A stretch of DNA of 24,824 nucleotides from the IMG/VR virus record IMGVR_UViG_3300040801_000800, positions 1 to 24,824 of that record, one strand, 5' to 3'. This stretch comes from a virus. The notes beneath the pieces are model-generated. The model ran no database searches. It was given only the letters and a program-made list of their open reading frames with translations, and was not told the DNA's origin. How positions within the stretch are numbered: position 1 is the stretch's first letter; every line of letters starts with the position of its first letter. Shown here piece after piece: positions 1 through 17,590 of the stretch. Made by a program: the position numbers and the translations under genes.

Positions 1-866
1 ACATCACACTAGACGTCTTACAGGCATTTGAACGTAGAACACGTTTCATGAATCTTATTCGCGTTGATGACGCATCAGAAACAGGTGCCGCAAGCGGTTC
101 TTTCATCATCGAAGGTAAAGAGGACAAGACTAACGGGGCATTGGCTACATATGGCACAGGTACTCAGGTTTCCGTTTCTAATGGTACACAGGATGAAATC
201 ATCATCGCAATTGACCGTCCTCAGTATGAGTCACGTCGTATCGACAAGTGGAAAGAAGCAGTAGCTCGTTACGATGTTTCAGCAATGAATGTACGTCAAC
301 TTGGTGCACGTCTTGCAAACGCAATCGACCGTAAGGTATCTGCGGCTATCGAAGCGGCTTCTCTTGCTACAGGTCTTGTATCAAATGGTGATGGTACTGT
401 TATTGTTAATACAGTTCTTCCCGGCGGTTTGGCAGCAGCTACTACAGCTGAAGGTAAAGGTAATGCAATCGCAGAGTCTATCTACGCAGCTGTAGCGGCA
501 GTTCAGACTAACGATGTTTACGATGAGCTTTATGTTGCTATTAACCCAACGAACTACTCTTACCTACCACAGTCTTCACGTGCTGTAAGTACAGAGTTTA
601 CATCAGGTAACGGTGGATATGACAACGGTGAAGTCAAGATGATTGGTGGAGCAACAGTGTTCTCAACAAACAATCTTCCTGCAACTGCTGGTCTTATTGC
701 TCTTGCTTTCACAACTGAAGCAGCTGGTATGGTTAAGCTTTGGGATGTTCAAGTTGACATCAACGAGCAGCCGGACTTCTTGAACGCTAAGCTTATCAAC
801 GCTTACTTCTCAAACGGTGTTGCGGCTCTTCGTCCTCAGTGTGCGGTCTCTATCAAGAACGTATAA
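1..866 (+). CDS. Major capsid protein, T7 gp10-like (N-terminus cut by window edge)
   Basis: Builds the icosahedral head shell. The reading frame is open from the first bases, so the true start lies upstream; the first in-frame Met at 48 is internal, because the residues before it (LDVLQAFERRTRF) already look like the family's N-terminal region (a 'VLxAFxR' segment). About 287 residues are visible against roughly 350 for T7 gp10. The middle (YDVSAMNVRQLGARLANAID, then KVSAAIEAA) matches the long spine-helix area of HK97-fold T7-type capsids, and the C-terminal part (ALRPQCAVSIKN) resembles the family's end. The position just before tail tubular protein A is the classical T7-supergroup order. 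The identification rests mainly on this order plus overall resemblance. No frameshift site for a minor capsid form is visible at the stop. Confidence 0.85.
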   Translation, partial: ITLDVLQAFERRTRFMNLIRVDDASETGAASGSFIIEGKEDKTNGALATYGTGTQVSVSNGTQDEIIIAIDRPQYESRRIDKWKEAVARYDVSAMNVRQLGARLANAIDRKVSAAIEAASLATGLVSNGDGTVIVNTVLPGGLAAATTAEGKGNAIAESIYAAVAAVQTNDVYDELYVAINPTNYSYLPQSSRAVSTEFTSGNGGYDNGEVKMIGGATVFSTNNLPATAGLIALAFTTEAAGMVKLWDVQVDINEQPDFLNAKLINAYFSNGVAALRPQCAVSIKNV

Positions 867-874
867 CTTCTAGT

Positions 875-890
875 GTCCTCCTCGGAGGGC
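875..890 (+). terminator. Small GC-rich hairpin after the capsid gene (weak terminator or processing site)
   Basis: GTCCTC pairs with GAGGGC (six pairs, one of them G-U) around a four-base CTCG loop, nine bases after the capsid stop. No U-tract follows, so a full intrinsic terminator is not supported. T7 also has its main terminator directly after its capsid gene, and a partial terminator or RNA stabiliser here would keep capsid output above that of the tail genes. That role is inferred. Confidence 0.4.
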
Positions 891-917
891 ATCGTTAAGA
901 TATAAAGGAGCTATGAG

Positions 918-1506: not shown

Positions 1507-4500
1507 ATGGCGTTAGTACATAACTCAAAAGAAAGTTTATTTGGTGGTGTAAACCAACAGGCAGCTGAGTACCGACTCAACACCCAAGTCGAAGAGATGA
1601 TTAACGCGTATCCTACTATCGACCGAGGACTTCTACGTAGAAACCCTACTGTACGCAAGACATTGAGTTCGGATATAACCTATACCAATGACATTTGGAC
1701 ATACGAATATGATAGAGGCACCGGTGGTGACGAGGCTGAGACCTACGCTATAAATATCACAATCGACGGTATGGAGATTATCAATACGATTGATGGTACT
1801 GTTTTTAAAGATGGTGCAGGGTTGACTTTTGATGGTAACTCACGTGAGTATCTTTTCCCTTTTATAGGCTCAAACGGTTACGCGGCTACAACTATCAAGG
1901 ACACAACCTTTCTTGTAAACAAGAACCGCACTCCAACTTTGTATGCTACTGAACATGGTGGAGAAGCCACTCCTGTATCAAAGAACTATTATTACGCGTT
2001 CACACAATTGGTTAAGACCCCAAGCAAATCCATGACTATAGACATGTACGGTGTAACCAAAACTATTTTTCAAAAAGACTACTGCCCAGCTAGTATGGTT
2101 GGATGGTTCACTCGTTTAGGCCGTAATACTTATTACAAGATGATTGTTGGAGCATCGACATTAACTATTGTTGTTGATGGGAAATCTATAGTTGTAACAA
2201 CCCCAAAACTTGAATTTAATACAAAAGTAAATACTAGCACTCTTCTTGGGGGAGATACAGCGTCATCTGTAATAAACGATTTTTTGAAAACGATAGAGAG
2301 TTTAAATAACTATTATGCTCGTATTGAAAAAGCAATACGTAATGCACTTGACCCAAACGTTTATACTGTAGAGCGTGCCGACGATTACAACGGAATAGCC
2401 ACTAACTTCCCACCAATACGAATAACACGTTGGGATGAATCTACTATATCTGCGGCATACAATTTAGTTATTGATACTGTACCATTGCCTACATTCACGC
2501 TTGTTTCTAATGCTCAAACAATGACATCTGTACAGAGTGATTACATTGGAAGCACTTCTACTGGAACGTACACTACAACCTACACTCCTCCCGTAAGTGA
2601 TTATCAAAAAGACGGATTCATTTGGGTTGAAAGAAGTGACCCTATATCCGGATACACATATAGTTTCACAGTTACAGACACGTTGGGAAACAGTAAGTCA
2701 GGAACGGCAACCGGAACAACGACCACAGCAGTGGCGTCGAGCATAGCGGCAACCATTACCGCTGACGCAAACTTTACTGCATCATCAGTAGGTTCAGCTG
2801 TCCGAATAACCGCAACAGCTAGTGGTGCAAACATGGATAGAGTTGACGCAGGGGATACTTATGGTAATCAAGCCTCATTTGGTTGGGCAAGAGAAGTGTC
2901 CACAGCCAATGACCTACCCAAGAATCTTGGGTTTAGTGGCTCGATTGTTAAGGTCATTGGTACAAGTGAGAACGCGTTCGCTGCTTATTGGTTAGTATAT
3001 ACTGAAGGACAGTGGCGTGAGACAGTTGACCCTGCATCACGCACAACAATCAACCCTGACACAATGCCCCATGTGCTTGTACGTGAGTCTAATAACACAT
3101 TTACTCTTAAGCCATACGATAAATGGGCAGTAAAAGAGATTGGTGATGACGATACTAACAGGCCACCATCGTTTATATCTACAACAGATAACCCGTCTCC
3201 TGTAATTAAGGATGTGTTTTTCTTTAAAAATAGACTTGGGTTTATGACTTCTACAACAGTTGTATTATCTGAAGTTGGAGAGTATGGGAACTTTTGGAGA
3301 ACCACTGTTGCTGCACTTCTTGATTCAGATAGGATTGATGCAAATGTTGATACAACAAAGGCCATCGACTTAGAGTACGCTACGTATCTTGAAGATTCTG
3401 TGATGTTATTTTCAGACATACAGTTTAGACTTGCAGGTGGAGATATCTTGTCTCCTAAGAATATTCAGATATCACAGACATCAGCATTTCAGATTAATCG
3501 CAATGTTCGTCCATTATTTATGAATGACCGTATTTTCTTCTGTGTTAAACGTGGTGGTAATACATCTGTGCAAGAATACTTTGTATCTGAAAGCGCATCT
3601 TCAAAGTCCGAAGCCAATGATATAACTGCACATTGTCAAACCTACATCCCTGATGACGTAACAAAGTTATCCGGTTCAGCGGTAAACAATATGCTGTTCT
3701 TAATATCAAAGTCTTCACCTGATGCATTGTTTGTGTATAAGTATTATGATTCAGGTAACGAGCGTATGCAATCTGCATGGTTTAAATGGACATTCAACGG
3801 TAACCTTCACAACGCGTTTGCATTTGGCTCAGAGATTAATCTGATGATTGACCGCATCCAATCTATAGCGGTTGAAGATTGGGTTATGTCTACAGGTATT
3901 TGGGAAGGTTCTAAGCTATGGAAAGGAGACGAGCTATGGATTGGGTCTCCTAGTGAGCTAACATCTCTCAACCAATTTGAGCAGATGGAAATATCACCAC
4001 TTGATTTTCTAACAACAACTTATATCGATGACAATCGTGAAGAAGAGGATAAGACTATTATTGATGGATTTAGCATTGATGGTAATTATGCCTCAGGGGA
4101 AGTGTTAAGTCGTGAGAACTTTAGTATCATTCTAAACAATGATACAGAGTTTGTATTCAATCAAACAGTTACGGCCGGTTCATTGACATACACAGTCCAT
4201 AGAGATGATGGTACAACCTATACTGCTATAACAACTGACGACACACCTGTGACAATACCCGTTCCTAAAAATCTTGCATTTAAGATTTTTAAGATTACCG
4301 TAACTCCGGAGTATGGAGCTACGACAACCGCTAAGGTTAATCCACCTGAAGCATACAACATCGATACCCCTGATGTGAATATTCTTCAACATCTAAACAC
4401 TTATGGGTGGTATGTTGATACTGTATCTATGCCATCTGATGTTCTGATTGATAACCAAGGTGCATGGTTTAAGATATATGGTGTGTCTAATGTAGGAGCA

Positions 4501-4815
4501 CTTATCCCTACACGTATTGACCTTGGAGAGTGGGTACTTGATACCGGTGGTAAAAAAGAGACAAGAGGACATCTACAATTTAAAACTGCTCAGATTTCTT
4601 CAGAAGAGGGTAGTGAGTTTTCACTTGAAGTTCGCGATATTAGTAGGGATAGGATTAAAAAGATACAGTCAAAATACACTGTTAATAGAAAACCTATGAT
4701 ATATGGTAACGCAAATCACATGAGACTTGGTATAATTAGTACATCAGAAGTTGGTTTTAGAATCAACACACTTTCTTACGAAGGTAACTTTAATATTCGC
4801 TCAAGGAGAATGTAA
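1507..4815 (+). CDS. Tail tubular protein B (T7 gp12-like nozzle)
   Basis: Forms the hexameric tail nozzle through which DNA leaves. The N-terminus (FGGVNQQAAEYR) is the hallmark 'GG(I/V)xQQ' opening of this family. Further marks are 'TMPHVLVR' (about 519-526), 'FFFKNRLGF' (571-579) followed by 'VVLSEVGEYGNFW', and 'LLDSDRIDANV'. At 1102 residues it is much longer than T7 gp12 (794). The extra length lies partly in residues about 205-460, where two similar beta-rich segments follow one another; see findings. A short AAGG site precedes the start. The stop overlaps the tailspike start by one base (TAATG), which suggests translational coupling. Confidence 0.9.
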   Translation: MALVHNSKESLFGGVNQQAAEYRLNTQVEEMINAYPTIDRGLLRRNPTVRKTLSSDITYTNDIWTYEYDRGTGGDEAETYAINITIDGMEIINTIDGTVFKDGAGLTFDGNSREYLFPFIGSNGYAATTIKDTTFLVNKNRTPTLYATEHGGEATPVSKNYYYAFTQLVKTPSKSMTIDMYGVTKTIFQKDYCPASMVGWFTRLGRNTYYKMIVGASTLTIVVDGKSIVVTTPKLEFNTKVNTSTLLGGDTASSVINDFLKTIESLNNYYARIEKAIRNALDPNVYTVERADDYNGIATNFPPIRITRWDESTISAAYNLVIDTVPLPTFTLVSNAQTMTSVQSDYIGSTSTGTYTTTYTPPVSDYQKDGFIWVERSDPISGYTYSFTVTDTLGNSKSGTATGTTTTAVASSIAATITADANFTASSVGSAVRITATASGANMDRVDAGDTYGNQASFGWAREVSTANDLPKNLGFSGSIVKVIGTSENAFAAYWLVYTEGQWRETVDPASRTTINPDTMPHVLVRESNNTFTLKPYDKWAVKEIGDDDTNRPPSFISTTDNPSPVIKDVFFFKNRLGFMTSTTVVLSEVGEYGNFWRTTVAALLDSDRIDANVDTTKAIDLEYATYLEDSVMLFSDIQFRLAGGDILSPKNIQISQTSAFQINRNVRPLFMNDRIFFCVKRGGNTSVQEYFVSESASSKSEANDITAHCQTYIPDDVTKLSGSAVNNMLFLISKSSPDALFVYKYYDSGNERMQSAWFKWTFNGNLHNAFAFGSEINLMIDRIQSIAVEDWVMSTGIWEGSKLWKGDELWIGSPSELTSLNQFEQMEISPLDFLTTTYIDDNREEEDKTIIDGFSIDGNYASGEVLSRENFSIILNNDTEFVFNQTVTAGSLTYTVHRDDGTTYTAITTDDTPVTIPVPKNLAFKIFKITVTPEYGATTTAKVNPPEAYNIDTPDVNILQHLNTYGWYVDTVSMPSDVLIDNQGAWFKIYGVSNVGALIPTRIDLGEWVLDTGGKKETRGHLQFKTAQISSEEGSEFSLEVRDISRDRIKKIQSKYTVNRKPMIYGNANHMRLGIISTSEVGFRINTLSYEGNFNIRSRRM
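4728..4738 (+). promoter_or_regulatory. Possible promoter element TGGTATAATTA inside the 3' end of tail tube B
   Basis: This 11-base string is identical to the one that overlaps the stop of the HNH gene at 10621-10631. It lies 77 bases before the tailspike start and could drive the tailspike and lysis genes. It is inside coding sequence (Leu-Gly-Ile-Ile-Ser), so chance is a real alternative. Confidence 0.25.
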
Positions 4816-7716: not shown

Positions 7717-8234
7717 TGTTAGGAATAGGAAGTATGTTAGCAGGTCTTGGAATAAACTTTGTTAAAGACCTTATCATGGATAACGGTGAGGACTTAGTTA
7801 AGGAAGGTATAAAGAAGGTTACTGGTATTGATTTAAACAAAAAAGAGTTGACTCCTGAAGATATAGCTAAGATTAAATCTCATGAACTAGAGATTAAACA
7901 ACTTGACTTCAAGAAGCTTGAAGAAGAGCATAGGCACAATGAAGCTAAACATGCTAAATCACACGAGACATACCAGATAAATCATGCAATGGCGGATACT
8001 ATTGCTAAGCAAATTATTAGTAGAAATCTTCCAATTATTGCTATACTTGTATTAGTGAATATATCTGTCGTATACTATATGGAAGATAAACCATCACTAA
8101 TAGCTATTGCTAGTAATATTATAGGAGTTGCAATAGCAAATCTATTTAATGAGAGACAAGCTATCGTAAACTTTTTCTTTGGCTCTAGCCTTGGTTCTAA
8201 AGAGAAAGACAAACAATTAAATAAACAGGTGTAA
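7716..8234 (+). CDS. Holin-like membrane protein (3TM holin family type)
   Basis: Probably sets lysis timing by making holes in the inner membrane. The protein is 172 residues from ATG 7716, which has AGAGGTGG at good spacing; a GTG at 7707 is in frame but overlaps that site. A charged middle helix (residues about 42-90) is followed by two hydrophobic segments (about 104-121 and 127-143) and the ending FFFGSSLGSKEKD (153-165). The pattern 'F-GSS-GSK-KD' at the C-terminus is typical of the phage holin family first described in gene transfer agents. The N-terminal segment (MLGIGSMLAGLGINFV) may be a third, weaker membrane or amphipathic helix. It lies upstream of the endolysin in one lysis block. 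Confidence 0.72.
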   Translation: MLGIGSMLAGLGINFVKDLIMDNGEDLVKEGIKKVTGIDLNKKELTPEDIAKIKSHELEIKQLDFKKLEEEHRHNEAKHAKSHETYQINHAMADTIAKQIISRNLPIIAILVLVNISVVYYMEDKPSLIAIASNIIGVAIANLFNERQAIVNFFFGSSLGSKEKDKQLNKQV

Positions 8235-8237
8235 GCA

Positions 8238-8726
8238 ATGGTAGAACGTGAAGAGTTTGAAGCTATGAAGCAGGAAATAGAAGAGTGTAAGTCGGGTGTC
8301 CATAATGACATTAAAGAGTTAAAAGATGGGCATAGAGGTTTACAAGAAGCACTTCACGCGCAATCAGTAGAGAGAAAGTCTTTCAATGATGAGATGAAGA
8401 GTATGATTGCAAATGTTATGTCACAAGTTAAAGAGCATACAATAGATGAGATGGATACTATTAAAAAGATTCATACTGTATTAGATACTCTTGTTAAACA
8501 AACTGCTGACAATACTGGATTTATTAGTTCTGTTAAACAGAATGAAGAACTAGAAAGAAGATTAGCTGAAAGAATGGATTCAATAAATAGACCAAAAGAA
8601 GAGATGTGGAAGAAGGTAAAGCTTACTGTTATCACTACATTGACTATTGGCTTTATTGGAGCAATAGGAACTGGCATAGGTATAATTGTGAAGATGTATT
8701 TTATGCTAACTGGTGAGGCTGTGTAA
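8238..8726 (+). CDS. Coiled-coil protein with C-terminal membrane anchor (lysis accessory?)
   Basis: It has 162 residues. Residues 1-118 are highly charged and heptad-like (EREEFEAMKQEIEECK, ELERRLAERMDSI). One membrane segment follows at about 127-151 (VKLTVITTLTIGFIGAIG and on), rich in spaced glycines, with a short tail. This layout resembles XhlA-type hemolysin/holin accessory proteins, and more distantly tail-anchored spanin-like proteins. No lipobox, signal sequence or proline-rich region supports a classical spanin. The gene starts three bases after the holin-like gene and is followed closely by the phosphoesterase. The coding sequence contains TATAAT at about 8681, upstream of the next gene, probably by chance. 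Confidence 0.65.
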   Translation: MVEREEFEAMKQEIEECKSGVHNDIKELKDGHRGLQEALHAQSVERKSFNDEMKSMIANVMSQVKEHTIDEMDTIKKIHTVLDTLVKQTADNTGFISSVKQNEELERRLAERMDSINRPKEEMWKKVKLTVITTLTIGFIGAIGTGIGIIVKMYFMLTGEAV

Positions 8727-8727
8727 C

Positions 8728-9669
8728 ATGACAGATTATAGCCAACTGCTAAAGTGTTGTACAACCCACCATCAGAAAGCTGTAATAAAGTCATTGATAT
8801 CTAACAACGGAAATAAGCTTCTTGTCGAGGAAGAGTTTGGATTGATAAGAACAAACCTTAACCGGATGATAAGACAACTCTCATCAATGCTTGAGGAAGA
8901 CGCCTATACCAATAAAGATATTGTTGTCATAGCCGATACACAAGTAGATTTAGAATCTCCAACATCACACATTTACGCTTTGAGCAAGTATATATGGGAA
9001 CACAAACCTGCCCACATTGTCCATATCGGGGACCATTGGGATTTCCCAAGCCTATCCTCATACGCGTCACGTTTACATGCAGAGGGGAAAAGACTTTCAA
9101 GCGACCTTGAAGGTGGGTTCGACGCGTTTAAGCTTATAATGGCTCATACAGATAAGATGAATAATAAGACTGGCGACGACTATAAACCGCGTAAGAGCTT
9201 TCTGATGGGCAACCACGAGATGCGACTTACTCGGTTTATAAACGAACATCCGGTGCTTCAAGGCTGCTTTGACTTAGAGGATTTTGTCACATCAGAAGGG
9301 TGGGAATTTCATGGATTTAATCAGCCTTTATGGATACATGATATATGCTTCTCTCACTATATGGAAAACCCTATGAGTGGTAGACCTGTCGGTGGAAGTA
9401 TGGAGAACAAGATTAATAAGTTTCCACATAGCTTTGTCCATGGTCATCAGCAACAGTACCAATACGCCCGTAGGCAGAACCTAAAAGGAAAGCCACATTT
9501 TGGTGTATGTGCAGGGTCGTTTTATATGCACGATGAAGACTACCGCGGTGCTAATAACACAGAGATAAGAGGGTTTACCCACTTGAAGGGTTTCACAAAT
9601 AGGTATGGGTATTTAGACCACGATGTTGAGTTCATATCTTTAGAAAGATTATTGGAGAAGTACGAATGA
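8728..9669 (+). CDS. Calcineurin-like metallophosphoesterase with N-terminal HTH-like segment
   Basis: A 313-residue protein from ATG 8728, with a GGTGAGG site nine bases upstream; GTG 8713 is in frame but less likely. Residues about 14-52 (QKAVIKSL through LNRMIRQL) look like the small helix-turn-helix that precedes the phosphoesterase in many phage proteins of this type. Metal-site motifs of the family are present: D70-T-Q72, GDHWD (101-105), GNHE (161-164), SH at 209-210 and GH at 239-240. The first motif reads DxQ rather than the common DxH. The substrate is unknown and could be a nucleotide, a nucleic-acid end or a phosphoprotein. Its TGA overlaps the endolysin start (ATGA), so it is expressed with lysis genes although its fold does not suggest lysis. 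Confidence 0.85.
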   Translation: MTDYSQLLKCCTTHHQKAVIKSLISNNGNKLLVEEEFGLIRTNLNRMIRQLSSMLEEDAYTNKDIVVIADTQVDLESPTSHIYALSKYIWEHKPAHIVHIGDHWDFPSLSSYASRLHAEGKRLSSDLEGGFDAFKLIMAHTDKMNNKTGDDYKPRKSFLMGNHEMRLTRFINEHPVLQGCFDLEDFVTSEGWEFHGFNQPLWIHDICFSHYMENPMSGRPVGGSMENKINKFPHSFVHGHQQQYQYARRQNLKGKPHFGVCAGSFYMHDEDYRGANNTEIRGFTHLKGFTNRYGYLDHDVEFISLERLLEKYE

Positions 9670-10007: not shown

Positions 10008-10019
10008 TGTAAAGATTTA

Positions 10020-10028
10020 TGTTATAAT
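10020..10028 (+). promoter_or_regulatory. Extended -10 promoter-like site TGTTATAAT before the HNH gene
   Basis: TGnTATAAT, the extended -10 form used by bacterial sigma-70 holoenzyme, lies in a 45-base gap between endolysin and HNH gene. No TTGACA-like -35 is seen at 15-19 bases. A start about seven bases downstream would leave the AAAGGA ribosome site (10042-10047) intact. This is the first of three such sites in late-operon gaps. Confidence 0.5.
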
Positions 10029-10052
10029 ATCACTTCTAACGAAAGGAAAATT

Positions 10053-10628
10053 ATGGCAAAAGCACATACATTGGAAACAGTATCAGAGTTTATGAAGGGT
10101 TATGAAGTGATGGAAGACGGAAGGTTTTTTAGCATTAAGAGTAGTAAGTTTTTAAAGCCCAGTTTGTCTAGTAATGGGTACTATATGCTTACACTTTCTA
10201 ATGGTGGAAAGACAAAAAGATTTCATCTTCACAGGCTTGTAGCAATAAGATTTATCCCAAACCCTCATAATAAGCCTCAGATTAACCACATTGATGGGAA
10301 TAAACAAAACAACAATGTGGTTAATTTAGAGTGGTGTACGGCCAAGGAAAATAATGCTCATGCCTTCAATGCTCTTGGATGTAAAAGAGGCGGTGGGCAA
10401 AGAGGAAAGTTTGGCGAAGAGCACAATAATTCAAAGCAGTTTTCTCTAGTATTTCCAAATGGAGAAATAAGAAGATTTGGAAGTGGGTTGGAGATGAAAA
10501 GAGAGTTGGGCTTCGACCATACGTCAATCTCTTACGCAAGGAATAAAAAAGGATTTGGGTATACTTTTACTCAAGGAAAAATGAAAGGGTTGACTATTCA
10601 ACCCTTTCACTTTGAACGTGTGGTATAA
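10053..10628 (+). CDS. Free-standing HNH homing endonuclease (NUMOD4/HNH_3 type)
   Basis: A selfish DNA endonuclease of 191 residues. An N-terminal NUMOD4-like segment (YEVMEDGRFFSIKS, about 17-30, then LKPSLSSNGYYMLTL) leads into the HNH_3 core: HLHRLVA (58-64), INHIDGN (77-83), NNNVVNLEW (86-94) and the closing CTAKENNAHA. A C-terminal segment with 'FDHTSISYARN' looks like the DNA-binding tail of this group. It stands between two intact genes, so it is not within an intron or a split gene. The start has a strong AAAGGAAAA site. The 3' end carries a perfect 12-bp inverted repeat and its stop codon overlaps a TATAAT element. The cassette was probably inserted into the late operon with its own expression signals. 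Confidence 0.88.
   Translation: MAKAHTLETVSEFMKGYEVMEDGRFFSIKSSKFLKPSLSSNGYYMLTLSNGGKTKRFHLHRLVAIRFIPNPHNKPQINHIDGNKQNNNVVNLEWCTAKENNAHAFNALGCKRGGGQRGKFGEEHNNSKQFSLVFPNGEIRRFGSGLEMKRELGFDHTSISYARNKKGFGYTFTQGKMKGLTIQPFHFERVV
10582..10609 (+). terminator. Perfect 12-bp stem-loop in the 3' end of the HNH gene
   Basis: TGAAAGGGTTGA pairs with TCAACCCTTTCA around a CTAT loop, all 12 pairs Watson-Crick. It encodes the residues just before the end of the HNH protein (from Met-Lys-Gly to Pro-Phe-His). It is followed by CTTTGAACG, not a U-tract, so it is better read as a weak terminator or RNA stability/processing hairpin. A promoter-like site comes 12 bases after it, as if to isolate the cassette from the next gene. 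Confidence 0.6.
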
Positions 10629-10631
10629 TTA
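10621..10631 (+). promoter_or_regulatory. Extended -10 promoter-like site TGGTATAATTA overlapping the HNH stop
   Basis: TGnTATAAT with no -35, 17 bases before the next start codon. The HNH stop TAA is part of the element. The AAAGGA ribosome site starts six bases after TATAAT (10635-10640), the same offset as at 14004-14012, so a transcript starting at the usual distance would lose part of its ribosome site. This leaves both a promoter and an RNA-level role open. Confidence 0.5.
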
Positions 10632-10646
10632 CATAAAGGATTTACA

Positions 10647-11243
10647 ATGGCTAGTGGATGGGCAGGAATAAACAGTGGTACAGATACCGGAGATGATGTA
10701 GAAGCGAACCTTGCAAGCGCGTTTGCAGCGATAGATGCTGACACACTTGCACTTGGAAACAGGGCTAGTGCTCTTGAAGCAAGTCACGGACTGTTGATAA
10801 TTGGTACAAGTGTTGCAGCGTCACAGCAACCAAGTTCTGTAGATAGCGCATTACAGGTGGAGTTTGGACCTGCACAATCGACAACAAATATTGATATCTC
10901 AGCAGCAGGTGATATAACATTTAAAGTCGCAGGGAAATATATCATATCGCCTTTCTTCCAATATGGACGAATTGGTGCTTCAGGTACTTCTGTTCTTTTA
11001 AATAGGTATCTTAAGAATGGTATTCAGATTGGTGGGTCTCTTGCATCTAAGATTGATAACGCCAATACACTTGTTCCATGGTCAAGCTCTGTAGTATTTG
11101 AAGCAGAGGTCAATGATGTGTTGACTATAGAGATAATGAGAGACAGCACCGGAAATAATTCAGGTGGCCTATTCGCAGTCACACCTACAGCCGGATGGTC
11201 AGTAGCACCATGCGCCGCCATTCAGATTTATAAAGCGACATAA
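10647..11243 (+). CDS. Probable virion decoration/fibre protein with C1q/TNF-like jelly-roll C-terminus
   Basis: It has 198 residues. The N-terminus (GWAGINSGTDTGDDVEANLA, then AFAAIDADTLALGNRASALEA) is a short alpha-helical, trimer-type leader of the kind found in phage fibres. From about residue 62 the sequence is beta-rich (VEFGPAQSTTNIDISAAGD, FKVAGKYIISPFFQYGR, EVNDVLTIEIMRD, AAIQIYKAT) with the spacing of a C1q-like jelly roll: 'F...GKY.ISP', a glycine-rich middle and a final short strand. Such proteins decorate heads or tails and bind surfaces. The function is inferred from fold resemblance and its place between the HNH gene and the core-protein genes. It has a clear AAAGGA site. Confidence 0.6.
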   Translation: MASGWAGINSGTDTGDDVEANLASAFAAIDADTLALGNRASALEASHGLLIIGTSVAASQQPSSVDSALQVEFGPAQSTTNIDISAAGDITFKVAGKYIISPFFQYGRIGASGTSVLLNRYLKNGIQIGGSLASKIDNANTLVPWSSSVVFEAEVNDVLTIEIMRDSTGNNSGGLFAVTPTAGWSVAPCAAIQIYKAT

Positions 11244-11252
11244 GGATAGTAA

Positions 11253-11891
11253 ATGGTATCACCAAATTTCAGCACAGCCAACATGACAAGCGGTGGTAGC
11301 ATAAACCCTAACGCTAGTGCAAGCATGGGTGGCCTAAGCACCGCAACCATGTTTCTCCCTGCACTCACAACACTTCTTGGTACAGCCGGTGCTGTATCAG
11401 ATATAAAACGACAAAGCGCGGCGGTTGTATCTAACATAAAGTCTATGGGAGAATCGTTAAAGTTCTCTCAACATGCCAAGTCTCAACAGTTGCTTGAGCT
11501 TGACCGTGTTATCGGAGACAAGCTTAGCGCGAGTGGGCTTGAGACATTGAAACGAGAAGCACGACTTAAGGCGGCCTCAGCAGAGACCGGTGTAAGTGGC
11601 ACTTCTACAGAAGAGGCTATCGGCGAAGCCTTCATGGAAGAGAACTTTAGAACTGCTGCTATCTTGCGTGATTCTGATATTCAGAAAAACTCATTGAAAC
11701 AATCGATGGTAGCAGATATGCTTAACTTCTCAAATCAAACCGAATCGATGATATCAGGTATGCCATCAGCTACATCAGCAATGTTACAGACATTGGGTAC
11801 TGGAGTCAGCAGTTTCAATATCGGACTTAGCATGATGACACAAACAGATAGAGACAGAATACTAGGCGTTGACCAAGGGAGTATGGGATGA
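11253..11891 (+). CDS. Internal virion protein B, T7 gp14-like
   Basis: A 212-residue protein in the position of T7 gp14 (196 residues). In T7 that protein leaves the head first and forms the outer-membrane part of the ejection channel. The sequence has a hydrophobic, Ala/Gly-rich start (FLPALTTLLGTAGAVSD, about 34-50), then long helices rich in Ala, Ser, Gln and Lys with 'LKAASAETGVSGTSTEEAIGEAF', matching the family's pattern of an 'SxxGSS' turn between helices. The identification rests on size, composition and order before gp15- and gp16-like genes. An AAGGA site precedes the ATG. Its stop overlaps the next start (ATGA). Confidence 0.8.
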   Translation: MVSPNFSTANMTSGGSINPNASASMGGLSTATMFLPALTTLLGTAGAVSDIKRQSAAVVSNIKSMGESLKFSQHAKSQQLLELDRVIGDKLSASGLETLKREARLKAASAETGVSGTSTEEAIGEAFMEENFRTAAILRDSDIQKNSLKQSMVADMLNFSNQTESMISGMPSATSAMLQTLGTGVSSFNIGLSMMTQTDRDRILGVDQGSMG

Positions 11892-13993
11892 GTACATTAG
11901 AACAGTTAGCCGGTGGCTCACAGGCACAACAGACATCAACCTCTGTGGGCTCAGTAAGCGGAGTCAACCCTACGCGTAAAGTCGCAGGGGAATCTCTTGC
12001 CAATGACTTAATGGGTATCATTAAACCTGTTGCACAAACAGTCAATGAGTATAACACTGCCTCTGTCAAAGCTGCCCAGCGTAGCGCGATGGACCGTAAG
12101 ACTGAGGTTGCTCGTTTCATTGCAGAACAGGAGAGTACTCTAACAGAAGGGTCAACTCCTGAAGAGCTGCGTCAGGCACAGGCACAACGCCAATCTATGT
12201 TCAGAGATATGTCTAATACAAAGTTTGATAATCCTGATGCCCAAGATGCGTTTGATACAATGTACACTAAAGAGGTGGGTGTTTCAGTTGCTCAGTCCAA
12301 CGCCCGTTTAGAGGTAATGGCGTTAAAAAAAGATGCTGCTATTAATCGTACAAACAACATTGATGGTATATCTGTACAATCAGAAGCAGGGATACCAATA
12401 CCATTGGAACAAATCAATGAGCATATCGACAGTATTACTGCCGGTGGATATTACACCAAAGAACAGGCGTATGAAGATATTGCAACCGCTGTAGGCACGT
12501 CATTAAATAAGAAATATTCAATAGATAAGAACCTTCCTATTTATAATGACGACGGTACAGTTAACCCAACATTGCAAGCGCAAGTATTCAATCAGTTTAA
12601 TGGTTCAATGGTACGTATGAATGAAGATGGTTCAGTTGAACGAGTCGGTAACACAACTGATAAGGCGGCTAGACTCATAATGAATAACTGGAAAGCACTT
12701 AAAATAAATCATACCGGCAAAAATGATAGTTGGAACGCTAAGTTTGAATCTTGGAAAACCACAACACGTAAGACCTCAGCAAATAACGGTAAGGGATGGA
12801 AGTCCCCCACTGATATTCAAGCACAAATTGATAACTTCTCTGAGCAATACATAGCTATAAACTCAGAGAAACCTTTGAATGAACGACAACATCAGGACGC
12901 AGCAGAAATCCTTGCAGGGCTAAAGGACCAACGTGATATCTCTACAATCGTAACACAAGATGTATTAAGCGGAGACATTAATAAAGTACGTGAGTATCTA
13001 AATGATGGCCGTACGCTTGATGTTGTCAGTAATCTTGATGGGACTATCATCGATGGGTACAAAATTACCAAAGACGAATACTCGTCAATGGTCAATAAAG
13101 TCTTAGAGACACAATCTGCCTCCTTATTAGCTACTGACCCTACCCAACAAAATAGCGCAGAGTTTGAACAAGGTCTCCAACAACTTGATAGGTGGGAAGA
13201 AATTAGCGGTAAGATGAGCGCGTTTACTGAGAAAAACACGAAAATATTTGATAAGAGTACATTCCCTACAATCACGAGTGATGCAGAGTTACGTAGAGCA
13301 CTTGCTTTCCAAGCACATCACTCAATTTCTAATCCTGCGTATAAGGGTGATGATGAAGTTGCCGGAAAGCTACAAGCTCTATTTTCAAAAACGAATGAAA
13401 AAGGTGAGCCATTAACAAGTGTCCAGTTGGCTCAACATGCAAATGCTATTATCCTGCAAGATAAAAATACCAAACAGTCATTGTTGAACGGGAAAATCCT
13501 TGATAAAGCTATAGTTGACACTATTGAGAAAGTCGAAACGGGAGAGGGTTCAATCACTAGAATGTTCAATGCAACTGCATCAATAGGAAGTGCGACAGCT
13601 GTAAAAGATTATCTTGTTACGAATGGTATGCAGAATGACCCTGAAGACACTATACAGAACTTAGAATGGGCAGATTACGGAACATCCACACCTACATTAA
13701 TTGGTGGTAAGATGGACAACCGTATTCCTGTTCCTATTGGTGTTAGTAAAAATGTGTTTTTAGATGCAGTCGATAATGTACGATTAAAATATAACAAGAA
13801 ATACAGCACCAAATTTGACAAAGGTGATGTAAGTTTTAGAACTACATACGATAAGCGAAGTAACAATTTCATAACTGAAATGTTCAACTCCAAAAATGCA
13901 AATGAAAGAATAGGTATTATTGATTCTGAATCAGTTTATATTCTTGCTAACAAGACTGAAGCCAAGAAGTCTAAACGAAAAACTAATAGATAG
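11888..13993 (+). CDS. Internal virion protein C, T7 gp15-like core protein
   Basis: It has 701 residues (T7 gp15 has 747). In T7 this protein forms the periplasmic tube that carries DNA with gp16. The start (MSTLEQLAGG) and region 30-75 (VAGESLANDLMGIIKPVAQT, AAQRSAMDRKTEVARFIAE) resemble the gp15 N-terminus. The rest is soluble and alpha-helical without membrane segments. It overlaps the gp14-like gene by four bases and is followed by a 36-base gap holding a TATAAT element. Assignment depends on order, length and the N-terminal region; no enzymatic motif is expected. Confidence 0.8.
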   Translation: MSTLEQLAGGSQAQQTSTSVGSVSGVNPTRKVAGESLANDLMGIIKPVAQTVNEYNTASVKAAQRSAMDRKTEVARFIAEQESTLTEGSTPEELRQAQAQRQSMFRDMSNTKFDNPDAQDAFDTMYTKEVGVSVAQSNARLEVMALKKDAAINRTNNIDGISVQSEAGIPIPLEQINEHIDSITAGGYYTKEQAYEDIATAVGTSLNKKYSIDKNLPIYNDDGTVNPTLQAQVFNQFNGSMVRMNEDGSVERVGNTTDKAARLIMNNWKALKINHTGKNDSWNAKFESWKTTTRKTSANNGKGWKSPTDIQAQIDNFSEQYIAINSEKPLNERQHQDAAEILAGLKDQRDISTIVTQDVLSGDINKVREYLNDGRTLDVVSNLDGTIIDGYKITKDEYSSMVNKVLETQSASLLATDPTQQNSAEFEQGLQQLDRWEEISGKMSAFTEKNTKIFDKSTFPTITSDAELRRALAFQAHHSISNPAYKGDDEVAGKLQALFSKTNEKGEPLTSVQLAQHANAIILQDKNTKQSLLNGKILDKAIVDTIEKVETGEGSITRMFNATASIGSATAVKDYLVTNGMQNDPEDTIQNLEWADYGTSTPTLIGGKMDNRIPVPIGVSKNVFLDAVDNVRLKYNKKYSTKFDKGDVSFRTTYDKRSNNFITEMFNSKNANERIGIIDSESVYILANKTEAKKSKRKTNR

Positions 13994-14003
13994 CTGTCAG
14001 TTA

Positions 14004-14017
14004 TAGTATAATTATAC
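14004..14017 (+). promoter_or_regulatory. Promoter-like TAGTATAATTA with palindrome GTATAATTATAC before the gp16-like gene
   Basis: The 36-base gap holds TATAAT at 14007-14012 inside a perfect 12-bp palindrome (14006-14017). Upstream is TAG rather than TGn. No -35 is seen. AAAGGA begins six bases after TATAAT. The palindrome could be a small operator or simply an AT-rich coincidence. Confidence 0.45.
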
Positions 14018-14029
14018 AAAGGAACCAAC

Positions 14030-17000
14030 ATGGCAGATATTTCACAAGAAGAACTTAGCGATACTCCAATAAACCTCGGAGCCGGCAATATATTTAGAGT
14101 TGGTGATGAGATTGCCCAAGAACATGCCAATTTAAAAAGTCAAGACGAAGCAAGTCTAGGTCAAAAGGGATGGGCCTTTTACGACCAAGCTTTAAAAGTA
14201 AGCACTGGAAACAAAGTTACTGGATGGGCTATAGAGAAGTCAATGTCATGGGAGTCGGAAGATGGCTATGCAATGGACGATGATATAGCTCTAGGTGTTT
14301 TAGACGCGTATAATCTAAATATGAAATACTTTGGAGACATACGTAACACACAATCAACCGAGGAACGCTATTACCGAATTGCTCAAGCCCTCAGAGAGCA
14401 GGAGACTGACCAACGCATAAATACCACACTTGGTGAAGTAGGCCGCACCGGCGCGATGATTACCGGTAGCTTTGTTGACATTGACTTGGCAGTAGGCTTT
14501 ACCGTTGGTATGGCTACAAAGTCTTCTGCCTTAGCGAAAGTTATGATGTGGGATGGTGTTGCTGAGACATCTCTTGTTGCCACACGCTTCATGGTAAATA
14601 AAGACTACACCGCTGAGGATGCGCTGTTTGATATGACAACAGGACTGGCCATCACTGCCGGTGCGAACAAACTCATGCACTCATTCAAAAAACCAAACGC
14701 TACAGGTACACCAAGAGACTCTGATGCAACAGCAGCCAGTCAACGCGCAGGGGCACCTATGGGTCAAGAGACACCGCCAACACCTCGCCCAAGAGACACT
14801 GAAGCTCCAACAGGTGCTCAACGTACAGACACACAGGCAACAGGTGCTCAACGTGCAGACGTACAACCAACAGCCAAAACAAATGCTGATTACAGAGCTG
14901 AAATCAATCGTGTAAATGAGGTTCGTAAACGAACATACACTCAGATGGGATTGAGTAAAAAGCAGGTCGATGAATTGGAAGCCCGTAAAGTTGAACACAG
15001 TAAGATGGGGCTGACTCCGGACCAAGCTAAACGCATGGATACCGAGAAGCCATTAAAGAGTATCGATAATGAAACTGCCCGTATCCTACGTACAGTTGAT
15101 GACATGAGTAGGGATATGAAAACTGTTGCTGATGACGTCTATGCTTTGATAAAACAAGCCCCACAAGAGGACTTAGAAGACCTCAAAGCGATTATAGATG
15201 ATTTGGTAAAGCAGTCTCCAAAGGAAATGGCAGCTGTAAAAAGACTTTATAAATCTAAACTTAATAATAAAAAGTTTGACAAAGTTCTTGCTGGGATTGA
15301 AGGGCTTGACCTTAAAACTAGCACTAAGAAAAAGCTATTGGCGGCATCAGTTGTTCTTGGAGCGACAGGTGCTCAAGCCGCTGAGGATGATTTCGCAGCA
15401 GAGCTTACCGGAATGTTCCTATTAGCAGGTGCCGCTGTGGTATTCGGTCCAAGTCTTGTAAAGAAAGTACGTAATGCCAATATTAGACAAACAGTTGGTA
15501 ATATTAGTGGTCGTGTGGAAGACTCGTACCATCGGGCCGCAGTGAATAACTCAACGCAGGGAGATATGGTACGTAGCCTTGGTGGGTTAATCTCAGATGA
15601 GCTGCACACCCGTATAACTTCCACAGTTGCTCCATACAACAAAGCCGGCGGTCAAGCCAAAAAGATTATGAACGACCTAGTGTACTCTACAGAGAGCGGT
15701 GCCGGAGCGGAAACGACTAAGGCTATGTGGGCACATGGCTCGATGTTTAAATATGCACGTGCTGAGCAAAAGATGTACCGTGCATGGAAAGCCGAGCGTA
15801 AGATTACTATGACATCAAATATACTTGATGGCATGAACGCTATCCATAAATTTCGTCAAGAAGTAATGGACAACATGGAGCTTAGAAACACAACCTCTCC
15901 TGCTGTAAAAGAGCTGACTGCTGAAAATGATAAAATCATGCAAGAGATTTGGGACAGGGTTAAAGAGTACGATGTATATGGATTTGAGAAGATTAACTAC
16001 AAGGCAGGGATGATGCCCCGTCTTTGGAAATCTGCCAATCTCAATGACCTAGTTAACAAAGTTTCTACTCAGGACCAATTTCTTATTAGAGACACTATAG
16101 CAAACGCGATAGCAAAAACAAGTGGCGACCCAAGCACTGCTATCGATATCGCAGATAAGTATATGGATAGTTGGATTAAAGGGTTCGATGCTGACATTGG
16201 AGTAAACAGGGCAGAAGACATATTTGGTTCTATTGGTTCACTACTTAAGGATGATGTTGACTTTGAGAAGTTCGCGGATGCAATGAATGTTGTTAAAGAT
16301 AAAAACTCTCGTGCCCAATATCGTGTTGATTTTGATATTAATGATATTCAGCCGATAACAGTTAATATTGATGGTGTCGATACGGTACTGACTAAGGCAC
16401 ACTTTGTGGAACGTGACTTCAAAACTGTACTCGACAGAGTGGCCAACTCAATGTATGGTTCTGCTGCAATAGCTAAGCGTGGCTATAAGAGTCGTAGACA
16501 GTTAGATGGCGCCATCACGACGGGAGTAACTAACCCAACAATGCGCTCAGAACTCAAACAGGTCGCTGACCTTGTGATGGGAGTACCTATCGCTAGTAAT
16601 AATAAGTTTCTGCATGAGATATCAATGATAACAAAAGACCTTACGATGGTAGCTAAGCTTCCGTTTGTTGTATTCTCAATGCCACCGGAGCTCATCGCAA
16701 CTTTGGGTAATGCAGGGTTTACGAAAGGTGTTAGAGCCGTTAAGGATGCGGTGGTATCCACATTCGGTAAAGACAGTGCAATGCTTGCAAGCCTTAGTGA
16801 GGTTAGTGGTCTTGGAACAAGTGTTAAACGTATGGACACAAGTGGGTACCGCGGATTGACTGATGATATAACAGAGCTTGATGATGCAGGGATAACATCA
16901 AAGATTCGTGAAAATACAATGAAACTGAGAGACTTTTCAATGTTAGCCAATGGATTGAGTTATTTCAGTGATGTATTGCAGCGTGCAAATCTACAACTTA

Positions 17001-17590
17001 ATGCTGAGAAGTTTGCAAACTTTGTGGCGTTCGGCAAAGAGGGTGGCGACGGTATAAACAAATCGCGCCTTAAAAGCTTTGGTATTGATGACGACACGAT
17101 TAAGATGTTTGAAAATACATTTGAATTCAACGAAAAAGGTAAACTAAAAGATTACGACATCAGTAAATGGCCTGTTAAGAAACGCGATAAGTTTGGAGAG
17201 ATACTTCGAGACATGAATCAGGCCGTTTCTCCTGAGACGACCATCGGTGAGACAGGTCTATATACGAGGACTACTGACCTTGGACGCGCACTATCAACAC
17301 TAATAAGTTACCCGATGCAACAGTTCAATATTCATGGTCTTGAGGATTTGAAACACTTCGATAGAATGACTTTCTTACACTCTGTTGGTGGATTTGCCGG
17401 AGCGTATTTAGGGCTGCACGCAAGATACGCAGCACAGGGTAAAGAAGTTGACGATGACAAGATTTTATTATACGCGCTACTGAATGTACCACAGCTCGGA
17501 GGGTTATCGGCGGTAACTTCGATGACAAGCCCTGCAACATTGGATACAATACAGAGTGCATTAAATATAGTTGGAATGGATAAAAAATAA
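14030..17590 (+). CDS. Internal virion protein D, T7 gp16-like core/ejection protein without visible lysozyme domain
   Basis: The largest gene here (1186 residues; T7 gp16 has 1318). In T7 it spans the inner membrane after ejection and pulls DNA in. Parts seen: a helical N-terminal region (1-215), a Pro/Thr/Gln-rich linker (about 221-285) with a 30-bp DNA repeat, charged helices (285-430), then two hydrophobic segments at about 435-450 (LLAASVVLGATGAQA) and 459-477 (LTGMFLLAGAAVVFGPSLV) that could form a membrane hairpin, and a long helical C-terminal part. The C-terminal segments 'LPFVVFSMPPELIATLGN' and 'TLISYPMQQFNI' are the kind of conserved stretches found in gp16-like proteins. The transglycosylase domain at the T7 gp16 N-terminus is not visible. 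Stop and next start overlap (TAATG). Confidence 0.85.
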   Translation: MADISQEELSDTPINLGAGNIFRVGDEIAQEHANLKSQDEASLGQKGWAFYDQALKVSTGNKVTGWAIEKSMSWESEDGYAMDDDIALGVLDAYNLNMKYFGDIRNTQSTEERYYRIAQALREQETDQRINTTLGEVGRTGAMITGSFVDIDLAVGFTVGMATKSSALAKVMMWDGVAETSLVATRFMVNKDYTAEDALFDMTTGLAITAGANKLMHSFKKPNATGTPRDSDATAASQRAGAPMGQETPPTPRPRDTEAPTGAQRTDTQATGAQRADVQPTAKTNADYRAEINRVNEVRKRTYTQMGLSKKQVDELEARKVEHSKMGLTPDQAKRMDTEKPLKSIDNETARILRTVDDMSRDMKTVADDVYALIKQAPQEDLEDLKAIIDDLVKQSPKEMAAVKRLYKSKLNNKKFDKVLAGIEGLDLKTSTKKKLLAASVVLGATGAQAAEDDFAAELTGMFLLAGAAVVFGPSLVKKVRNANIRQTVGNISGRVEDSYHRAAVNNSTQGDMVRSLGGLISDELHTRITSTVAPYNKAGGQAKKIMNDLVYSTESGAGAETTKAMWAHGSMFKYARAEQKMYRAWKAERKITMTSNILDGMNAIHKFRQEVMDNMELRNTTSPAVKELTAENDKIMQEIWDRVKEYDVYGFEKINYKAGMMPRLWKSANLNDLVNKVSTQDQFLIRDTIANAIAKTSGDPSTAIDIADKYMDSWIKGFDADIGVNRAEDIFGSIGSLLKDDVDFEKFADAMNVVKDKNSRAQYRVDFDINDIQPITVNIDGVDTVLTKAHFVERDFKTVLDRVANSMYGSAAIAKRGYKSRRQLDGAITTGVTNPTMRSELKQVADLVMGVPIASNNKFLHEISMITKDLTMVAKLPFVVFSMPPELIATLGNAGFTKGVRAVKDAVVSTFGKDSAMLASLSEVSGLGTSVKRMDTSGYRGLTDDITELDDAGITSKIRENTMKLRDFSMLANGLSYFSDVLQRANLQLNAEKFANFVAFGKEGGDGINKSRLKSFGIDDDTIKMFENTFEFNEKGKLKDYDISKWPVKKRDKFGEILRDMNQAVSPETTIGETGLYTRTTDLGRALSTLISYPMQQFNIHGLEDLKHFDRMTFLHSVGGFAGAYLGLHARYAAQGKEVDDDKILLYALLNVPQLGGLSAVTSMTSPATLDTIQSALNIVGMDKK
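14808..14867 (+). repeat. Two 30-bp direct repeats in the gp16-like linker
   Basis: CAACAGGTGCTCAACGT occurs at 14808-14824 and again at 14838-14854, giving two copies of a ten-residue unit containing TGAQR with Asp/Gln/Thr (residues about 261-280). A looser copy (AASQRAGAPM) lies at about 235-244. This is a flexible, recently duplicated linker. Confidence 0.85.

Follow-up and report, generated by a model that had tools for sequence, protein, structure and literature searches.

Gene content of the contig

The stretch of DNA analyzed here (the window) is a 24,824-base viral contig. Its plus strand carries a T7-like virion block with genes for the capsid, tail tube, nozzle, spike, endolysin and an HNH endonuclease, together with a jelly-position gene, internal virion proteins (including a gp16-like protein) and terminase; polymerase, helicase and resolvase genes are carried on the minus strand. 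The 5' part of the major capsid gene (positions 48 to 866, plus strand) lies outside the window, and its predicted promoter is visible in a sister contig, L117. The HNH gene (10053 to 10628, plus strand; NUMOD4 plus HNH_3) is located between the endolysin gene and the jelly-position gene (phrog_3614; 10647 to 11243, plus strand), which opens the internal-virion block, and the gene for the gp16-like internal virion protein occupies 14030 to 17590 on the same strand. No close isolates of the window phage were found, the best identities to annotated phages being ∼37% for terminase and ∼31% for the capsid protein. Relatives were found among viral contigs, some of them 41 to 45 kb in length; no gp16 relatives specific to the window were detected.

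The gap upstream of the first tail gene (867 to 917) contained no TATAAT and had a hairpin instead (873 to 892, plus strand), between the capsid gene and the first tail gene. In phage T7, gene 10 is followed by a terminator, and this hairpin stands at the corresponding place, as do the hairpins at the same junction in the relatives compared.

TATAAT sites between the late genes

The first-pass annotation had placed a TATAAT hexamer in each of the real gaps of the late operon, and hexamers were indeed present at 10023, 10624 and 14007. Gaps of at least 15 bases between plus-strand genes after position 9600 were limited to 10008 to 10052, 10629 to 10646 and 13994 to 14029; the remaining junctions overlapped or were spaced by 9 bases or less, as had been described. 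The placement held for the copies at 10023 and 14007 but not for the copy at 10624, which shares bases with the stop codon of the HNH gene (TAA at 10626 to 10628) and therefore belongs to the 3' end of this gene and not to the gap.

Two of the sites were exact TGnTATAAT elements: TGTTATAAT at 10020 to 10028 (plus strand) upstream of the HNH gene, with a predicted start at about 10034 to 10036, and TGGTATAAT of the jelly-roll gene at 10621 to 10629 (plus strand), with a predicted start at about 10636. The third, TAGTATAAT at 14004 to 14012 (plus strand) upstream of the gp16-like gene, had no TG directly before the hexamer, which lies within the palindrome TATAATTATA. The reported lack of a -35 element was confirmed at 16 to 18 bases from all three sites, the hexamers at a spacing of 17 being ATATAT, ACCCTT and TAATAG. 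An RNA hairpin with a 12-bp stem and a 4-base loop was predicted at 10582 to 10609 (plus strand), at the end of the HNH gene and 11 bases before TGGTATAAT; the 51-base segment had a folding energy of -17.8 kcal/mol (z, -4.4). This hairpin has no T-run and hence is not a typical intrinsic terminator.

Plain TATAAT was not enriched over the whole window (19 found versus 24.7 expected), and thus the signal is one of position. When the four late gaps, together with 10 bases upstream, were shuffled 5,000 times, three TATAAT copies were observed versus 0.48 in shuffles, with 39 shuffles reaching three. The extended form was far more clearly above shuffled sequence of the same gaps, with two TGnTATAAT elements versus 0.018 and only 1 of the 5,000 shuffles reaching two. 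A chance origin of the TGnTATAAT placement in the window is unlikely.

The 8-mer TATAATTA, which had also been singled out, was present on the plus strand at 4731, 10624 and 14007 as reported, and occurred on the minus strand at 14009 because TATAATTATA is palindromic. The copy at 4731 lies within the nozzle gene and was missing from the relatives in which this junction was compared. In a first contig set that included the window the 8-mer was enriched (7 versus 0.5), and in a second set it was not (0 versus 1.87). As the enrichment failed to replicate, TATAATTA was rejected as a special or family element.

Recurrence of the motif in related contigs

Motif counts in relatives were made in zones 8 to 70 bases upstream of called gene starts. 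These starts came from a simple calling script on which several of the counts depend, and the contigs compared are fragments, partly related to one another, so that the relatives are not fully independent. Enrichment of TGnTATAAT upstream of late genes was found in two contig sets. In late-arm zones of the first set, with the window excluded, 9 copies were present versus 0.56 (0 of 200 shuffles; 1 copy in antisense), while early-arm zones held 2 versus 0.95. The second set consisted of 44 deduplicated capsid loci, mostly new, on contigs largely nonoverlapping with those of the first, and again gave 9 copies versus 0.93 (0 of 100 shuffles; 1 in antisense). On the strand opposite the capsid gene in this set, 3 copies were found versus 0.53, and therefore the late-arm preference is not absolute. 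An unbiased count of all 8-mers in late zones placed GGTATAAT and TGGTATAA near the top.

Upstream of the gene preceding ivp212, which is the jelly position, TATAAT was present in four of seven relatives (G005, G009, G015 and G021), for which the chance probability is about 1.6e-4, and TACAAT was present in G012. Directly upstream of ivp212, TGGTATAAT or TGATATAAT was found in G018 and G017. In relatives, TATAAT-like sites before ivp212 were in some cases located inside hairpins and may reflect that structure. At the gp16 junction, TGGTATAAT was found in one relative, G012, and most relatives had no exact TATAAT.

These counts bear on whether the three window sites are AT-rich matches that fell in short gaps by chance and are not promoters. 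The flat window-wide count of plain TATAAT, the number of gap shuffles reaching three copies and the missing TG at the gp16 site are all compatible with such an origin. It is nevertheless quite unlikely, given that the TGn form greatly exceeds its frequency in shuffled sequence, both in the window and in the two contig sets, and that its placement before jelly and capsid genes recurs.

A predicted promoter and RNA hairpin upstream of the capsid gene

Contig L117 overlaps the start of the window by 508 bases at 94.7% identity and continues further upstream. It carries TGTTATAAT at 8087 to 8095, 143 bases before the capsid ATG at 8239. Two further elements of L117 are TGGTATACT, downstream of the portal gene, and TGCTATAAT, upstream of an earlier plus-strand gene. 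A scan of 260 bases upstream of the capsid gene in 48 deduplicated loci detected 18 TGnTATA(A/C)T elements, all of which sit 120 to 180 bases from the ATG. Among the relatives, it was before the capsid gene that the pattern was most pronounced.

Over the 45 bases that follow the predicted capsid start, folding into a hairpin was seen in the majority of 46 loci. The mean z was -2.26, compared to +0.26 in a later control stretch, and values below -1 were obtained in 87% and 11%, respectively. A 15-sequence alignment of the leader contained no compensatory pairs, and therefore the case for this hairpin rests on stability.

The conserved capsid leader is about 130 to 170 bases long (L117:8096-8238), with the 5'-terminal hairpin GTTGGGC...GCCTGAC and a conserved downstream stretch, GGCA..CCACAACC. 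Comparison of the L117 leader with Rfam gave no convincing match. Elsewhere in L117, a divergent promoter-like pair at 3849 to 3874 has CATGCTATAATTGTACCATG common to both members; each predicted start coincides with the ATG of its gene, and both messages would thus be leaderless. A tandem array of short CACGCAAGTCGGCCC-like units occupies positions 1 to 200, at the start of this contig.

-35 boxes in related contigs

In many relatives TTGACA or TTGACT was located 17 to 18 bases before the capsid -10 element. Matches to TTGACA at 5 or 6 of 6 positions (spacing of 16 to 18 bases) were present at 20 of 46 capsid promoters, and under a similar selection shuffled upstream sequence reached this level in 1.4%. 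The control region of L117 has TTGACT-16-TGATATAAT. Capsid -35 boxes were commoner at promoters lacking TG (12 of 18) than at those with TG (8 of 28; P = 0.012) when the -10 element was picked with a bonus for TG, and this trade-off was not significant (P = 0.13) with a TG-blind choice. Across 12 late sites the mean best match to TTGACA was 2.67 at spacings of 15 to 19, versus 2.75 to 3.42 at control offsets. Boxes of this type were also present at some early promoters of relatives. Early-arm promoters were rejected as a motif class, since their -35/-10 pairs were not in excess over shuffles.

Searches for a phage polymerase or sigma factor

The window is a fragment of its phage, and the searches covered near-complete relatives. 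None of ten relatives had a T7-type RNA polymerase (PF00940); the positive control, LUZ100, was matched. No sigma-70 region 2 was detected in the records searched, eight of them 40 to 45 kb long, and region 4 gave only weak matches below the threshold, one of them inside an HNH gene. No sigma or transcription factor was present among the 25 most frequent Pfam/PHROG families matched by 80 other proteins. A search for the AsiA anti-sigma protein gave no match, and no positive control was matched either. Late zones of 44 loci showed no enrichment of the T4 late motif TATAAATA (0 versus 2.08 in shuffles).

Two readers of the TATAAT sites had been put forward at the outset: the host polymerase, acting on extended -10 promoters, or a phage factor recognizing a late-promoter family like that of T4. 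The first gained support and the second did not. A late family that depends on a sigma or late factor of the phage (gp55 in T4, gp36 in phiEco32) would be in keeping with the -35-less late-arm sites of the window and with the higher frequency of TGnTATAAT in late than in early zones of relatives, and a divergent sigma factor could evade profile searches. Such a family is very improbable in view of the searches for sigma regions and frequent protein families, the lack of TATAAATA enrichment and the TTGACA or TTGACT at 17 to 18 bases in orthologous capsid promoters. The capsid -35 boxes, together with the lack of a T7-type RNA polymerase and of sigma region 2, favor the host sigma-70 holoenzyme over a phage factor. 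Furthermore, as the virion genes are T7-like and no T7-type RNA polymerase was found, late transcription is probably carried out by the host polymerase.

The TATAAT sites are thus very likely host sigma-70-type extended -10 promoters positioned before late genes of a T7-like phage. Support for this reading comes from the late-arm enrichment, the positionally fixed capsid promoter with its 5' hairpin, and the TTGACA or TTGACT boxes of relatives, all of which can be read directly from the sequences. The host primary sigma-70 holoenzyme would read the sites, with the TGn before TATAAT offsetting the missing -35 element, and sites before the capsid gene, the internal-virion block and gp16 in the window phage would lead to late transcription. 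The HNH gene, between the endolysin and jelly genes, would have its own promoter, and that of the jelly gene would follow just after it. RNA initiation by the host polymerase at these sites, its timing and the host itself are inferred.

The host

No host genome was found by means of terminase and polymerase alignments. A special case of the host-promoter reading is a host belonging to the Campylobacterota, in which TGxTATAAT without a -35 element is the normal promoter, so that nothing phage specific would be involved. In Campylobacter jejuni, TGxTATAAT without a clear -35 is found in about 89% of promoter regions (PMC3656092), and these promoters resemble the window sites; a data set that includes several of the relatives is cited in two papers, one of them on Guaymas Basin vent sediments. 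The -35 boxes at capsid and some early promoters of relatives, including TTGACT-16-TGATATAAT in L117, argue against such a host, as do the replication proteins (polymerase and helicase), which are closest to those of marine gammaproteobacterial phages, and the host scans, which found nothing. A Campylobacterota host is therefore not favored and appears unlikely.

There is also a slim chance that a small phage protein disables -35 recognition by the host sigma-70, turning early and host promoters off and leaving late extended -10 promoters active. Were this so, an early-to-late switch would take place without a phage polymerase or sigma factor.

Comparison with known systems

The window sites resemble sigma-70 extended -10 promoters in having TGn plus TATAAT with a -35 that is poor or absent, in a start-codon spacing that permits a start 6 to 8 bases downstream, and in the -35 boxes at 17 to 18 bases in relatives. 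They differ in that the gp16 site has TAG instead of TGn and in that the sites described here are predicted promoters. T4 late promoters are likewise -10 only, as in the window, but TATAAATA was not enriched and relatives have -35 boxes. The middle and late promoters of phiEco32, with the consensus tAATGTAtA, are read by the phage sigma factor gp36 (PMC8948821); these are also single-element promoters without a -35 before late genes, whereas no sigma factor was found here.

In T7, the class III promoters phi10 and phi13 lie before gene 10 (capsid) and near the internal-core genes, and class III promoters have a 23-base consensus used by T7 RNA polymerase. The late promoters predicted here are in roughly the same places but have sigma-70-type motifs, and the T7-type polymerase was absent from the ten relatives searched. 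Host-type promoters ahead of the capsid gene and close to the internal-virion genes would thus take positions similar to those of the strong late promoters of T7, which suggests how T7-like structural genes can be expressed in phages lacking their own RNA polymerase. A capsid-gene promoter with a 5' RNA hairpin appears to be conserved across this group of uncultured phages.

T7-supergroup podoviruses without an RNA polymerase, SIO1 and VpV262, are already on record (PMC6775973). The window phage shares with them T7-like capsid, tail tube, nozzle, gp16-like and terminase genes and, in its relatives, the lack of a detectable RNA polymerase. It differs in that its capsid is only about 27 to 31% identical to the closest isolate matches and in that the nearest DNA polymerases are from siphoviruses and other marine phages.

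Additional gene arrangements were observed in the relatives. In one contig (L067:947-1651) an HNH gene preceded the internal-virion block at a short distance; TGGTACAAT was present upstream of the HNH gene and TGGTATAAT upstream of ivp212. In another (L042:15554-15890) a small reverse gene was present between g76 and the terminase gene, which had its own TGTTATAAT upstream.
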